Shown piece by piece: positions 4,390-13,111 of a stretch of 64,000 nucleotides of DNA. Each line of letters starts with the position of its first letter. Within the stretch, counting starts at the first letter, position 1. The notes under the pieces are model-generated. The model was given only the letters and a program-made list of their open reading frames with translations. It was not told the DNA's origin and made no database searches. The position numbers were made by a program, and so were the translations under genes. Where the stretch lies: the NCBI RefSeq assembly GCF_011764585.1, contig NZ_AP022853.1, positions 1,719,501 to 1,783,500 of the forward strand, in the 5' to 3' direction. This stretch comes from Sulfurimicrobium lacus (GTDB lineage Bacteria > Pseudomonadota > Gammaproteobacteria > Burkholderiales > Sulfuricellaceae).

Positions 4390-5154
4390 ATGACCATTAT
4401 CGCAGTCTTCAATCAAAAGGGTGGTGTCGGCAAGACCACTACCAGTCTCAACCTTGTGGGCGCACTGGCGCGCGGCGGGCTCGACCCGCTGGCCATCGAC
4501 CTCGATCCGCAGGCCCACCTCACCATCATCGGTGACGTGCCGGTGGCTTCCGGCACGGACAGCATGTTCGGCTTCTATACCGAAGCCAGCTCCCTGTCCG
4601 AACTGGTGCGCAAGTTCCCCATCGGCGGCAACATCATTCCTTCGCACATGGAGCTGTCCAAGGTGGACGCCCTCCAGGGCAAGGGCCTCAAGTCGGTGAT
4701 GCGCCTCAGGAACGCCATCCAGGCGGAGATGCTGGAGCACGAGGGCGCGCCGATCGTGATCGACTGCTGCCCCATGCTCAACGTGCTGTCGCTCAACGCC
4801 ATTTTCGCCTCGCGTAAGTTGCTGGTGCCGATTTCGGCGGATTTTCTCTCGGTGAAGGGGGCGATCCAGCTGGAGAACACCCTCAAGGCGCTCGAGCATG
4901 TGGTGAAAAAACGCATCGAGCGGCGCTACGTAGTGACTCGCTTCGACTCGCGGCGCCGCATGGCGCACGATATCGTGTCGCAGCTGCGCGAGCGTTTCGG
5001 CGCCGAGTTGTGCACTACCCACATCACGGAAAACGTCAGCCTGGCGGAAAGCCCGGCCTACAACAAGGATGTCTTTACCCATGCGCCGCACAGCCAGGGT
5101 GCGAAGGATTACGATGCCCTGGTGACGGAGCTGGCGGAAACCGGTTTCCTCTGA
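4390..5154 (+). CDS. ParA/MinD-family ATPase (orphan)
   Basis: A 254-residue deviant Walker-A ATPase. KGGVGKTTTSLN (residues 11-22) and the LDPQAH segment are typical of ParA. No ParB gene or obvious parS cluster accompanies it, so a role in placing a cellular structure is more likely than chromosome or plasmid partition. The next gene, a membrane GGDEF-EAL protein, starts 26 bases downstream and may be co-transcribed. Partner unknown. Confidence 0.85.
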   Translation: MTIIAVFNQKGGVGKTTTSLNLVGALARGGLDPLAIDLDPQAHLTIIGDVPVASGTDSMFGFYTEASSLSELVRKFPIGGNIIPSHMELSKVDALQGKGLKSVMRLRNAIQAEMLEHEGAPIVIDCCPMLNVLSLNAIFASRKLLVPISADFLSVKGAIQLENTLKALEHVVKKRIERRYVVTRFDSRRRMAHDIVSQLRERFGAELCTTHITENVSLAESPAYNKDVFTHAPHSQGAKDYDALVTELAETGFL

Positions 5155-9668: not shown

Positions 9669-10112
9669 ATGAACGACGAAACACAAGAAATATTCGAGCC
9701 GAAAAACGATCTTGAACACAAACTGCTGGCCGCGGCCAACGGCGAGATAAGCAGCGAGGAACTGGTTGCCGGTCTGCTCGATGCGCAGGTGTTCATGCCG
9801 GTGGAGGACGAGGACATCGAGATCAAGGGTTTCCAGCGCTCCACCAAGGCTCGCCCGCTGGTGGTGCAGGCGGAGGAGGGGATTCATGTCCTGGTGCTGT
9901 TCAGCAGCCCGGAGCGTGCCAAGGTGGTGGTGCAGGAATTTCCAAAATTCGGCGGCGGCTTGCTGGCCGAATTTCGCTGGGTACTGGAGCGCATCGACGC
10001 CGGTGCCGGCGTGACCATCAATCCGGGCTGGGAAATCGGCATCGATCTGGATCCCGAAACCATCGCGCAACTGGCGCAGGAACTGCTCGCGGAAAAAGCC
10101 AAACTGCACTGA
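9669..10112 (+). CDS. SseB-domain protein
   Basis: A 147-residue acidic cytoplasmic protein. The pattern of DLEHKLLAAANGEIS, VFMPVEDED, ARPLVVQ and HVLVLFSSPERA matches the SseB N-terminal domain family; the C-terminal SseB domain seems absent or short. The biochemical role of these proteins is not settled. The gene follows glk by 28 bases and ends just before a G-rich inverted repeat. Confidence 0.75.
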   Translation: MNDETQEIFEPKNDLEHKLLAAANGEISSEELVAGLLDAQVFMPVEDEDIEIKGFQRSTKARPLVVQAEEGIHVLVLFSSPERAKVVVQEFPKFGGGLLAEFRWVLERIDAGAGVTINPGWEIGIDLDPETIAQLAQELLAEKAKLH

Positions 10113-10246: not shown

Positions 10247-10507
10247 TTAATTCAGCAGCGGATGGTCCTTGGGCAATTGCTTCGAGTACCAGATTGCCAG
10301 TTTGTGGCGCAAGGTCTTTTCCGCAACCTGTTCCTCGGGCAGGGGCTGAATGACTTTGTCGTGAACGAGCAGGCGGTAGATATAGAGCAGCTTTTCGCTG
10401 GCGGAATCCGTCGCTTCAAATTCGACCACGCCGCGTCCTTCGGCGTATTTCACGCCCGCGAGCATCGCGCCTTTGAACAATTCAGCTTCATGCTTCAGGG
10501 GTTTCAT
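10247..10507 (-). CDS. Small protein of unknown function
   Basis: An 86-residue cytoplasmic protein without a recognised domain. The start at 10507 (MKPLKHEAEL) is chosen because GGAGAG lies six bases upstream; a longer frame to 10558 lacks such a site. It has a plausible mixed alpha/beta composition (FEATDSASEKLLYIYRLL). It is the last gene of a minus-strand run behind the DsrC-like and DUF4202 genes. Confidence 0.6.
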   Translation of the reverse strand: MKPLKHEAELFKGAMLAGVKYAEGRGVVEFEATDSASEKLLYIYRLLVHDKVIQPLPEEQVAEKTLRHKLAIWYSKQLPKDHPLLN

Positions 10508-10590
10508 CGCACTCTCCGCATTCCTGGTTGAGGAATATGCATTGTGCACCGGCTGCAAGCGGAAATCAGCCTTCTGCTCTTACGCTGAGT

Positions 10591-11004
10591 TCAAATATCC
10601 AGGTCGAAAGAGTGGGGCGCTTCGTTCAGGTCGTCGTAAGGGGTATGTTGGTGCACGAAAAGCGGTAGTTGTAGCGCATGCGCTGTCTGCCCTGGCGCCG
10701 GCAGCAAAAAACTGCCGATGTCGAGCCATTTCACCGCCCCGTTCGGCAGGGTGCCGAACATGCTGTTAGCCATATCTTGAGAGAGTTTTTCAATACTGCC
10801 ACCGTGCTCCACGAACACCGCGCATTCGAACAGGCCGCCGTGCGCGTCGAGGATTTCGATGCGGTCGTGAACCGCCAGCAGGGCGTTGTGCAGGCCGAGC
10901 TTGCTGGCCGGGTGAACGGAGTAGTCCAGCCAGCACGGCTTGCCGTCCTCCCCGCAGTATTCCTCGGGGAGTTGGGACGACCAGTAGCGGACGATGAATT
11001 TCAT
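10591..11004 (-). CDS. Protein of unknown function
   Basis: A 137-residue protein. The start at 11004 (MKFIVRYWSS) is preferred; the frame open to 11169 encodes low-quality Arg-rich sequence and runs through two hairpins. Cys and Trp residues (EEYCGEDGKPCWLDY) are notable. No family is recognised. It lies between another small unknown gene and the DsrC-like gene, all on the same strand. Confidence 0.55.
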   Translation of the reverse strand: MKFIVRYWSSQLPEEYCGEDGKPCWLDYSVHPASKLGLHNALLAVHDRIEILDAHGGLFECAVFVEHGGSIEKLSQDMANSMFGTLPNGAVKWLDIGSFLLPAPGQTAHALQLPLFVHQHTPYDDLNEAPHSFDLDI

Positions 11005-11026
11005 TGGTGGCGCTGTCAGGTTTTGC

Positions 11027-11074
11027 CTCACGGCTCGTGAGATCTGGCCTCGCGGAATACCGCGCGGCCAGATC
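11027..11074 (-). other. Two adjacent hairpins between minus-strand genes
   Basis: In the minus-strand transcript a strong stem (GATCTGGCC pairing with GGCCAGATC, plus five further pairs, TATT loop; 11041-11074) is followed at once by a second stem (CTCACG AGC CGTGAG; 11027-11041). There is no U tract, so a simple intrinsic terminator is unlikely. They sit about 25 bases before the start codon at 11004 and could affect mRNA stability or translation. Confidence 0.6.
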
Positions 11075-11177
11075 ATTCTCCTGCAACGCCCATGTCCTGT
11101 CCATAACGTGCTTGAGGCGCGACAGACAGTCCCTTTGCGCAGCGCGAAGCTGGCGCTACGCTCATTCACCCATGTTG

Positions 11178-11543
11178 CTATTCCACTGAGCCGAACGATC
11201 TGTCGCTGCTGTAGGCCGGCAATGGCAGCCCGGCAATGCGGCTGCCCTGGCTGACCGGGCCGCCGGGAAAGAGGCGGTAAAGGTATTTTCTGCCTCCTTG
11301 CTCAGCGAACTCCTCTTCCAGACAGTGCAGCAGGATGCGCCCACTTGATGCCAGGCCACATTCCTCGTAGTGCTCGCGCATGAAACAGACAACTTCCCAG
11401 TGTTCGGGCGTAAGTGTGATTCCTTCTTTTGCAGCGAATTCCCTGGCAATGTCTTCGGACCAGGGGTCGAGTTCTTCCAGGCTGCAGGGCATGTCGCTCG
11501 ACGAACGTTCCGCGGCGGCAATGGCTTGATTGATGTCTAACAT
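11178..11543 (-). CDS. DsrC/TusE-like protein lacking both conserved cysteines (RspA type)
   Basis: A 121-residue protein with the family hallmarks: EGITLTPEHWEVVCFMREHY, then KYLYRLFPGGP and RIAGLPLP near the C terminus. DsrC proteins carry two functional Cys in their C-terminal arm and TusE one. Here the arm reads QGSRIAGLP and ends PAYSSDRSFGSVE, so both positions are replaced. This fits the third class described for the family (RspA, proposed regulatory), which cannot form the trisulfide or relay sulfur. The strong AAAGGAGGG ribosome binding site fixes the start. The upstream gene is DUF4202. Confidence 0.82.
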   Translation of the reverse strand: MLDINQAIAAAERSSSDMPCSLEELDPWSEDIAREFAAKEGITLTPEHWEVVCFMREHYEECGLASSGRILLHCLEEEFAEQGGRKYLYRLFPGGPVSQGSRIAGLPLPAYSSDRSFGSVE

Positions 11544-11550
11544 GATTAGT

Positions 11551-11647
11551 CCCTCCTTTGCGCGAGGCGGGTTGCTGTAAACAACCGCCTCATTGACCCA
11601 AATCCTAACGGGATTGTGTTCAATCTGTTAGACGCTGCAAAGGAGGG
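11551..11647 (-). promoter_or_regulatory. Structured leader with anti-Shine-Dalgarno upstream of the DsrC-like gene
   Basis: In the minus-strand RNA, CCCTCCTTTGC (11647-11637) is the perfect 11-base complement of GCAAAGGAGGG (11561-11551), which contains the ribosome binding site. Between them is a separate 10-bp hairpin with one bulged base (GAGGCGGTTG with CAACCCGCCTC; 11591-11564). The arrangement could switch between a closed and an open ribosome site. Confidence 0.55.
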
Positions 11648-11673
11648 CTGGTTCTGAGGATGTGCGCGTCCTG

Positions 11674-12279
11674 TTAAGCGACGCCCAGCGCCTTTTTGAC
11701 CACGGCCAGCATTTCCGGTGTGTAGTCGAGCTTGAGGGCGGCTTCGTGGCCTTGTTCCGACATCTTCTTCCAGGTCTTGCGCAGGATGTCGAGTAGCTTT
11801 TCCTCTTCGTAATGGCTGTATTTTGTCACGAACGCTTCCAGGTAATGCTGCAGGAAAGTCAGGTCGATGATGTCTTCGAGCGCCTGTGTTTCCGGGTTGA
11901 GCTTGAGTTTTTCCTTGCGCAGCAGGGACTTGACCTTGGAGATAATCTCTTCGTCATAGCCGACTTCGCGCATGATTTCGCCGGCGGTTTCGCCGTGATA
12001 CTTGTACAGGAAGGTGCGCCACTGCATGTACCCGGCCTTGTCCATCGGATAGGTGTCGCGCGGAATTTTCCAGCGGCAGATGTGCTGGGCGCGCACGGCG
12101 AGCTGCAACGCTTCGGATGCGTCGGGGGCGAAACGCTGCTGCATGGCGCTCATGCGCTGGGCGTAAAGCAGTTCCTTGGGGTATTCCTTGCCGTCGAATA
12201 CTTCCTTGTTGGGGTCCTGCGCATTGGCGGCGTCAAACTTGGCGATCGCCTGGTCGAAGCGGGATTTATCAGAAATCAT
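11674..12279 (-). CDS. DUF4202 domain protein
   Basis: A 201-residue cytoplasmic protein. The segments YAQRMSAMQQRFAPDASEAL, RAQHICRWKIPRDTYP, GYMQWRTFLYKYHG and ALEDIIDLTFL match the DUF4202 family, which has conserved His residues suggesting a metal-binding HD-like fold. Biochemical role unknown; homologues are frequent near sulfur metabolism genes. AAGGA nine bases upstream supports the start. Probably transcribed with the downstream DsrC-like gene, 130 bases away. Confidence 0.8.
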   Translation of the reverse strand: MISDKSRFDQAIAKFDAANAQDPNKEVFDGKEYPKELLYAQRMSAMQQRFAPDASEALQLAVRAQHICRWKIPRDTYPMDKAGYMQWRTFLYKYHGETAGEIMREVGYDEEIISKVKSLLRKEKLKLNPETQALEDIIDLTFLQHYLEAFVTKYSHYEEEKLLDILRKTWKKMSEQGHEAALKLDYTPEMLAVVKKALGVA

Positions 12280-12315
12280 ATATGCCGTCCTTGATTCGGA
12301 ACAAGAAAATGGAAA

Positions 12316-12324
12316 AGTATATCA
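12316..12324 (-). promoter_or_regulatory. Possible extended -10 promoter for the DUF4202 gene
   Basis: The minus strand reads TGATATACT, an extended -10 element, 37 bases before the DUF4202 start. No good -35 is seen. The remaining bases between 12325 and 12449 hold no gene. Confidence 0.35.
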
Positions 12325-12449
12325 CCAAACTCTGATGGAGGAGGAAGCGGCTGTAGCAAGTGTTTATAGAGTGGAGCGGGGACTTCGGAACGAATGCCGA
12401 GCAGAGGATTGCGCTATACGACCGATTCCGAACAGGACGGATTTGGGGC

Positions 12450-12480
12450 AAAAAAAACCGCCGGGTTTTACCCCCGGCGG
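12450..12480 (-). terminator. Rho-independent terminator of the peroxiredoxin gene
   Basis: Perfect 8-bp stem CCGCCGGG/CCCGGCGG with a 7-base loop, followed on the minus strand by eight T residues. It is 28 bases past the peroxiredoxin stop codon. Confidence 0.92.
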
Positions 12481-12508
12481 TTTCTTCGCTTCAGCTTGCA
12501 GGAACTGA

Positions 12509-13111
12509 TTACAGTTCGCTGGAGTGCTTCGCCAGGTACTCGGCAACACCCTTGGTGTCGGCCTTCATGCCTGCCTTGCCCTTGTTCCAGCCAGCGGGGC
12601 AGACTTCGCCGTGCTGTTCGGTGAATTGCAGGGCGTCGACCATGCGCAGCATTTCGTCGATGTCGCGACCCAGCGGCAGGTCGTTCACGATCTGGTGGCG
12701 CACGGTGCCGCTCTTGTCGATCAGGAAGGAGCCGCGGAAGGCGACGCCGGCACCGGCTTCGACGTCATAAGCCTGGCAAATTTCGTGCTTGATGTCGGCC
12801 ACCAGCGGGTATTGCACCTGGCCGATACCGCCATTGTTGACCGGGGTGTTTTTCCATGCGAGGTGGGTGAACTGGGAGTCGATGGACACGCCGATCACTT
12901 CCACGTTGCGGTCCTTGAATTCTTTCAGACGGTGGTCGAAAGCGATCAGCTCGGACGGGCATACGAAGGTGAAGTCGAGCGGGTAGAAGAAAACCACCGC
13001 ATACTTTTCCTTGATGTGGGTCTTGAGGTTGAAGCTTTCTTCGATGTTGTTGTTGCCCATTACCGCTGCAGCGGTGAAATCCGGAGCGGCCTTGCCGACG
13101 AGAACTGCCAT
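12509..13111 (-). CDS. ahpC: Typical 2-Cys peroxiredoxin (AhpC/Prx1 type)
   Basis: A 200-residue peroxiredoxin reducing hydrogen peroxide and organic peroxides. The peroxidatic Cys is in DFTFVCPSE (about residue 51) and the resolving Cys in GEVCPAGW (about residue 170), as in the typical 2-Cys group. No AhpF gene is nearby, so thioredoxin or another reductant is expected. It has its own promoter and terminator and so is monocistronic. AAAGGAAAT supports the start. Confidence 0.95.
   Translation of the reverse strand: MAVLVGKAAPDFTAAAVMGNNNIEESFNLKTHIKEKYAVVFFYPLDFTFVCPSELIAFDHRLKEFKDRNVEVIGVSIDSQFTHLAWKNTPVNNGGIGQVQYPLVADIKHEICQAYDVEAGAGVAFRGSFLIDKSGTVRHQIVNDLPLGRDIDEMLRMVDALQFTEQHGEVCPAGWNKGKAGMKADTKGVAEYLAKHSSEL

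Follow-up and report, generated by a model that had tools for sequence, protein, structure and literature searches.

In the 64,000-nucleotide stretch of DNA analysed here (the window), a gene of the DsrC/TusE family is preceded by a leader that carries, upstream of the ribosome binding site, a perfect 11-nt complement of it. The best explanation, which we put forward tentatively, is that this leader masks the Shine-Dalgarno (SD) sequence and thereby silences transcripts that start upstream of the complement. The sequence of the leader, its rarity, its predicted fold and its partial conservation are documented below. Masking of the SD in the window and in one relative is well supported by structure prediction, and an effect on translation is plausible. 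The leader is probably a real but lineage-restricted case of a well-known type of translation control.

The inverted repeat and the gene it precedes

In forward letters, window positions 11551-11561 read CCCTCCTTTGC and positions 11637-11647 read GCAAAGGAGGG, and the two are perfect reverse complements. The order in the minus-strand RNA is CCCUCCUUUGC (11647-11637), 75 nt, GCAAAGGAGGG (11561-11551), 7 nt, and the AUG at 11543-11541. Re-reading the sequence in this way confirmed an earlier reading made from the letters alone (the sequence-only reading), which had placed an 11-base perfect complement of the ribosome binding site 75 bases upstream of it. The features of the region are as follows.

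11674..12279, minus strand: DUF4202 gene (Pfam DUF4202, 7e-77), upstream, a possible source of read-through
11637..11647, minus strand: 5' arm, anti-SD, CCCUCCUUUGC in the RNA, perfect complement of the SD arm
11626..11633, minus strand: GUCUAACA, possible 5' half of a pseudoknot, complementary to the start-codon region (a lead only)
11605..11631, minus strand: predicted hairpin A, CUAACAGAUUG / CAAUCCCGUUAG, between the arms, with 66.7% of pair cells kept over three genomes
11602..11631, minus strand: weak promoter-like match CTAACA-N18-TAGGAT, second best in 901 bases, whose start would fall between the arms
11564..11591, minus strand: predicted hairpin B, GAGGCGGUUG / CAACCCGCCUC, immediately 5' of the SD arm, -15.5 kcal/mol alone
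11551..11561, minus strand: 3' arm, GCAAAGGAGGG, holding the ribosome binding site and separated from the AUG by 7 nt, with AAAGGAGGGACT the same in all three genomes
11535..11542, minus strand: UGUUAGAC, last two bases of the AUG plus codons 2-3, possible 3' half of a pseudoknot (a lead only)
11178..11543, minus strand: gene of the DsrC/TusE family (Pfam DsrC, 1.1e-25), encoding 121 aa with no C-terminal Cys

The two arms are the only copies of the 11-mer in the whole genome (3,826,324 bases). A simple gene-calling script applied to 463.5 kb of this genome (the window plus 20 stretches) called 417 genes, 231 of them with an SD-like motif. Perfect complements of at least 11 nt within 130 nt upstream were found for two of the 231, the DsrC-like gene and a gene at L063:2152 that is preceded by a simple hairpin. 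Among 4620 shuffled leaders (20 x 231) in which the SD part was kept, none reached 11 nt and one reached 10 nt. The chance per 64-kb window (about 58 called genes, 32 with an SD) is at most roughly 1%, before allowing for the other searches made in the sequence-only reading. As in a cis-acting SD-masking leader, a perfect anti-SD (11 of 11 nt) stands beyond chance in the same leader as its target; the arrangement is genuine, and chance alone is an unlikely source of it in this genome. The sequence CTCCTTT followed by AAAGGAG at spacings of 8-30, 31-60 or 61-91 bases occurs at two sites in the genome (the DsrC-like leader and the simple hairpin, at 102099-102143), and a backwards-read control gave 0, 3 and 0 sites in the same spacing classes, with equal counts on the two strands. 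Since such 7-base pairs are no more frequent than in the control, the unusual feature is the length of the pairing.

In the simple hairpin, the halves of a perfect 20-bp inverted repeat flank a 9-nt loop (TAATCATTC); it lies at L063:2097-2145 (102097-102145 of the genome) and hides the SD of the 258-aa gene at L063:2152, whose product has a signal-like N-terminus. Its loop and flanks resemble part of a Fur box. The repeat was not found at E 0.1 in the other members of the set of 22 family genomes.

The DsrC-like protein passes the Pfam and NCBIfam cut-offs of the DsrC/TusE family (PF04358, 90.5 vs. 24.9 bits; TIGR03342, 88.7 vs. 53.5) and scores below the cut-off of the TusE equivalog NF008562 (86.6 vs. 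191). It differs from the family in its tail, YSSDRSFGSVE, which is without the C-terminal Cys of DsrC/TusE; this Cys position is the mark of the sulfur-carrying members. The earlier wording "Cys-less" was too broad, as Cys occurs at positions 20, 53, 62 and 74 of 121. DsrC-like proteins without the C-terminal Cys have already been described, for example from SUP05 phages (PMC4164917). Two other genomes, G004 and G006, are placed in one genus with the window genome, and their contigs L033 and L034 (second copies of L002 and L003) encode proteins with 89% and 86% identity, respectively, to the window protein.

The DUF4202 gene is on the same strand as the DsrC-like gene, 130 nt upstream, and a simple scan of 10500-12800 found no terminator-like site. 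About 100 nt past the stop codon of the DsrC-like gene there is a palindrome, GATCTGGCC / GGCCAGATC (11041-11049 / 11066-11074), with no T run. A DUF5062 gene and a second ORF without a Pfam match occupy 10247-11169, between the DsrC-like gene and a convergent gene (9669-10112); these two are missing from L033 and L034, where the counterparts of the DsrC-like gene and the convergent gene adjoin. A literature search, with thin coverage of subscription journals, found nothing that joins dsrC with a riboswitch, nothing on DUF4202, and nothing on DsrC, RspA and sulfur together, and two papers that mention Sulfurimicrobium lacus; among limited listings there was no title on a dsrC leader.

Predicted fold and proposed mechanism

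The minimum free energy (MFE) of the 154-nt leader is -50.8 kcal/mol, compared with -35.8 (sd 3.7) for shuffled sequences (z -4.0), and none of 200 shuffles was as good. In the predicted fold, an outer stem of 11 + 2 pairs (11647-11637 with 11561-11551) surrounds hairpins A and B. The stable nested hairpin described in the sequence-only reading is hairpin B (11591-11564), and hairpin A (11631-11605) is predicted in addition. The lower stem of hairpin B (seven pairs) keeps 95.2% of its pair cells over the three genomes, and two of its pairs differ at both bases, one of them in L033; the other, in L034, depends on an uncertain alignment. GGAGG is paired with a probability of 1.0 in the window and L033 and of 0.14 to 0.96 per base in L034, where the mean unpaired fraction of the SD at 37 C is about 0.3 (over slightly different stretches than in the GGAGG run). 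The part from CAGAAC to the SD has an MFE z of -6.1 in the window and -2.4 in L033; the MFE z of L034 is -0.9.

Access to the SD in the model changes most with the 5' end of the RNA. The modelled cost of exposing AAGGAGG is 11.0-12.7 kcal/mol for 5' ends at 11960, 11760, 11676, 11660 and 11650, and 2.1-4.0 kcal/mol for 5' ends at 11640 (within the 5' arm), 11636, 11620, 11600 and 11590. Besides the promoter-like match listed above, a weak match TTTGCA-N17-CACAAT (11641-11613) ranks third in the 901 bases scored with hexamer weights, and its start would also fall between the arms. In each of L033 and L034 the six best matches included none between the arms, a stricter promoter scan gave none there, and the sigma-54 pattern was absent from all three leaders. 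Such weak matches are what the space between the arms yielded, where, by the sequence-only reading, a transcription start would count against the switch.

Given the effect of the 5' end on access to the SD, and a DUF4202 gene upstream with no terminator found, the simplest mechanism is masking on read-through RNA and access on a shorter RNA. The outer stem, 11 bp plus two pairs, would enclose hairpins A and B and hide the ribosome binding site. RNAs that start upstream of the 5' arm, for example by read-through from DUF4202, would be translated poorly; we infer both this silencing and the co-transcription. RNAs begun or cut between the arms would be translatable, as the modelled opening cost falls from 11-13 to 2-4 kcal/mol, and the choice of the RNA 5' end would then act as the switch. 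An alternative route to translation may be the opening of the leader by some factor. The sequence-only reading had called the arrangement one to be expected of a translational switch; this is partly supported, in that masking of the SD is predicted in the window and one relative, and the switch itself is hypothetical.

Two other arrangements were considered and rejected. Translational coupling with DUF4202 is disfavored by the position of the 5' arm, which begins 26 nt past the stop codon, so that a terminating ribosome should not reach it. The other, an upstream peptide, would use the AUG at 11593 and a 15-codon frame with its stop at 11546; by eye, the frame differs in L033 and there is no AUG in L034.

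Should the masking leader prove real, a sulfur-relay paralogue would gain a post-transcriptional layer of control, in a construct that is simple to test. Such a leader would also suggest that regulation of these DsrC-like genes was rewired among close sulfur oxidizers, with an RNA leader taking the place of a promoter site. SD masking is itself well known as a mechanism, so the case would teach little of general scope.

Relatives, other leaders and rival explanations

Three genomes, all of one family, are known to carry the leader. By ordinary DNA comparison, one genome besides that of the window has it in full, at 74% identity, and the third retains two short pieces where the homologous site lies. 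Beyond these three orthologous sites, the 22 family genomes gave just short matches of 15-25 bases (E 0.03-1), and a search of a plasmid collection gave no match. A covariance model, R1, had these three leaders as its input, and its three strong matches are therefore by construction; beyond them nothing in the 22 family genomes fell below E 0.1, and the three weak matches (E 0.11, 0.19 and 1.6) were in two other genomes.

The 5' arm of L033 is CCCTCCCTTGC, with one mismatch, and retention of 10 of 11 bases has an expected probability of 0.18 at the 74% identity of the leader. The stretch of L034 aligned to the 5' arm is AATCGTTTATGGTGA, and its anti-SD pairing is largely lost. When the homologous 18 nt were paired with the SD region, 1, 4 and 11 of 2000 shuffles were as good for the window, L033 and L034, respectively; the best anti-SD partner over the whole leader was matched or beaten by 0, 1 and 25 of 100 shuffles. 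The sequence-only reading had pointed to related genomes as a check on the pairing, and the answer is divided: the pairing is kept in two of the three leaders that share the site (the window and L033) and mostly lost in L034. Covariation, another check it named, was scored and speaks neither for nor against the structure, with a score reached by 226 of 500 shuffles, no better than shuffled, for three sequences. Standard pairs make up 75.5% of the pair cells in the three-row alignment and 74.6% in shuffles, and three rows are too few either way. With the partner slid by one to three columns, 43-51% of pairs are standard; this contrast favors the structure but is expected, because the structure was derived from one of the three rows.

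Two further observations concern the flanks of the leader. All three genomes share the segment TCCTCAGAAC (window 11651-11660, minus strand) unchanged, although the leader sequence around it has diverged. In L034, a 70-nt insertion at about 4795-4865, around the DUF4202 stop codon, precedes a conserved TTAACAGGAYGYG..ATCCTCAGAAC segment and is absent from the window and L033.

An order-wide protein search gave a match at 1e-28 or better in 37 of 399 genomes, own genome included. The anti-SD test covered 31 loci, 3 of the window clade and 28 others, some of these closely related to each other. It left out L014, L017, L025 and L027-L030, whose protein match falls short of the start codon (in L027 the upstream DNA is missing), as well as L089-L102, 14 loci from the order-wide search; L043 is a partial locus. 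None of the 28 other leaders clearly has an anti-SD, and the best two, L022 (2 of 100 shuffles) and L026 (7 of 100), are near chance because 28 tests were made. In three of the 28 (L016, L019 and L026) other folds give the SD a predicted pairing of 98-100%; burial of the SD in a fold is thus no rarity by itself.

Relatives of the DsrC-like gene in other genomes are preceded by different leaders. The Rrf2-like motif TTGA-N9-TCAA, with at most one mismatch and within 220 nt, was found in 14 of 41 DsrC-like leaders, compared with 3.5 expected from shuffles, and in none of the three leaders of the window clade. Eight of the 14 belong to one genus (g2), and related leaders are not independent. The count includes 8 of the 14 order-wide loci; the hand-placed starts of L014 and L017 miss by some codons, as does the start of L092. 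A TTGACYAATWYGCTCAACTAATC-like palindrome is present about 105-120 nt before the start in L006, L007, L011-L015 and L017, and in L006 it overlaps a promoter-like TTGACT-N17-TATATA. The palindrome resembles Rrf2/IscR-type sites.

These comparisons bear on the first rival, that the complementarity is chance or a passing lineage-specific accident with no regulatory role, while ribosomes or co-transcriptional folding keep translation adequate. We regard this as unlikely, though it is the most probable of the rivals. It accords with the survival of the pairing in just two of three related leaders, with the lack of a clear counterpart among the 28 other leaders (L022 being the best), with covariation that equals shuffles, and with a genome-wide frequency of 7-nt pairs no higher than the control. 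It has to contend with the failure of all 4620 shuffled leaders to reach 11 nt, with the MFE z of -4.0, and with a modelled cost of 11-13 kcal/mol that would be expected to matter for initiation.

Opening of the leader by a specific ligand, protein or small RNA, possibly through a pseudoknot between GUCUAACA and the start-codon region, is in our estimate improbable. The multi-helix fold between the arms would suit such a switch, as would UCCUCAGAAC and UCUAA, which are identical in all three leaders while neighboring bases diverge. The complement of the start region ranks first among the leader 8-mers in the window (of 92) and in L033 (of 101) and eighth of 94 in L034; its pairing with UGUUAGAC is perfect in the window and has a U-G wobble in L033. 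However, the protein sequence MLD dictates part of the start region, and the window and L033 share the same leader segment, so the two first ranks count as a single observation. The fold is also poorly kept in L034, and covariation again equals shuffles. A search of 11480-11720 against Rfam 15, at E up to 10, found nothing, in agreement with the earlier statement that no known riboswitch class is recognized, and over the window the sole gathering match is a tRNA at 955-1027. No strong competitor for the anti-SD arm was found: in the 310 nt or so upstream, the best alternative partner, in the DUF4202 coding region, reaches -11.8 kcal/mol, compared with about -23 for the SD.

A more speculative extension, to which we give little credence, is that the leader represents a new class of leader RNA in a few Sulfurimicrobium-group species. 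In it, a pseudoknot would hide both the SD (CCCUCCUUUGC/GCAAAGGAGGG) and the start codon (GUCUAACA/UGUUAGAC) of the DsrC-like gene without the tail Cys, would open on a sulfur or redox signal, and would replace the Rrf2-like promoter site of its relatives.

An RNA thermometer that melts open with temperature, an option raised in the sequence-only reading, is very improbable. A stem-masked SD is the architecture of a thermometer, and in L034 the modelled opening of the SD does increase with heating, between 0.19 (5 C) and 0.58 (85 C). The increase is a shallow one, with 0.27 reached at 25 C, 0.35 at 45 C and 41% at 55 C. L033 opens (0.283) at 85 C only, and the window leader, modelled at 0.000 for all of 5-55 C and at 0.017 for 85 C, stays at most 2% open throughout, with no opening in the growth range. 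These modelled melting curves make temperature an unlikely trigger. Finally, perfect 11-bp inverted repeats around 75 bp could be the terminal repeats of a small mobile element, a reading with next to no likelihood, disfavored by the absence of further 11-mer copies in the genome and by the yield of the 22 family genomes, namely three orthologous sites, short matches at E 0.03-1 and three weak model hits.

Comparison with known systems

The masking leader that we favor shares with translational riboswitches an anti-SD and nested helices in the leader. It is unlike them in that no Rfam class, no strong competitor for the anti-SD and no covariation above shuffles was found for the window leader, and classing it as a riboswitch, or as a thermometer, is not supported. 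With the fourU and ROSE thermometers it shares an SD paired to an upstream anti-SD; unlike theirs, the window stem is perfect, remains closed to 85 C in the model and has no Rfam match.

Another likeness is to gene e of phage T4, for which SD masking reportedly depends on the transcription start site. There a stem hides the SD on long transcripts, and in the window, too, a start site inside the stem would free the SD. Unlike in gene e, the masking stem of the window is long-range, with two nested hairpins, and the promoter between its arms is a candidate.
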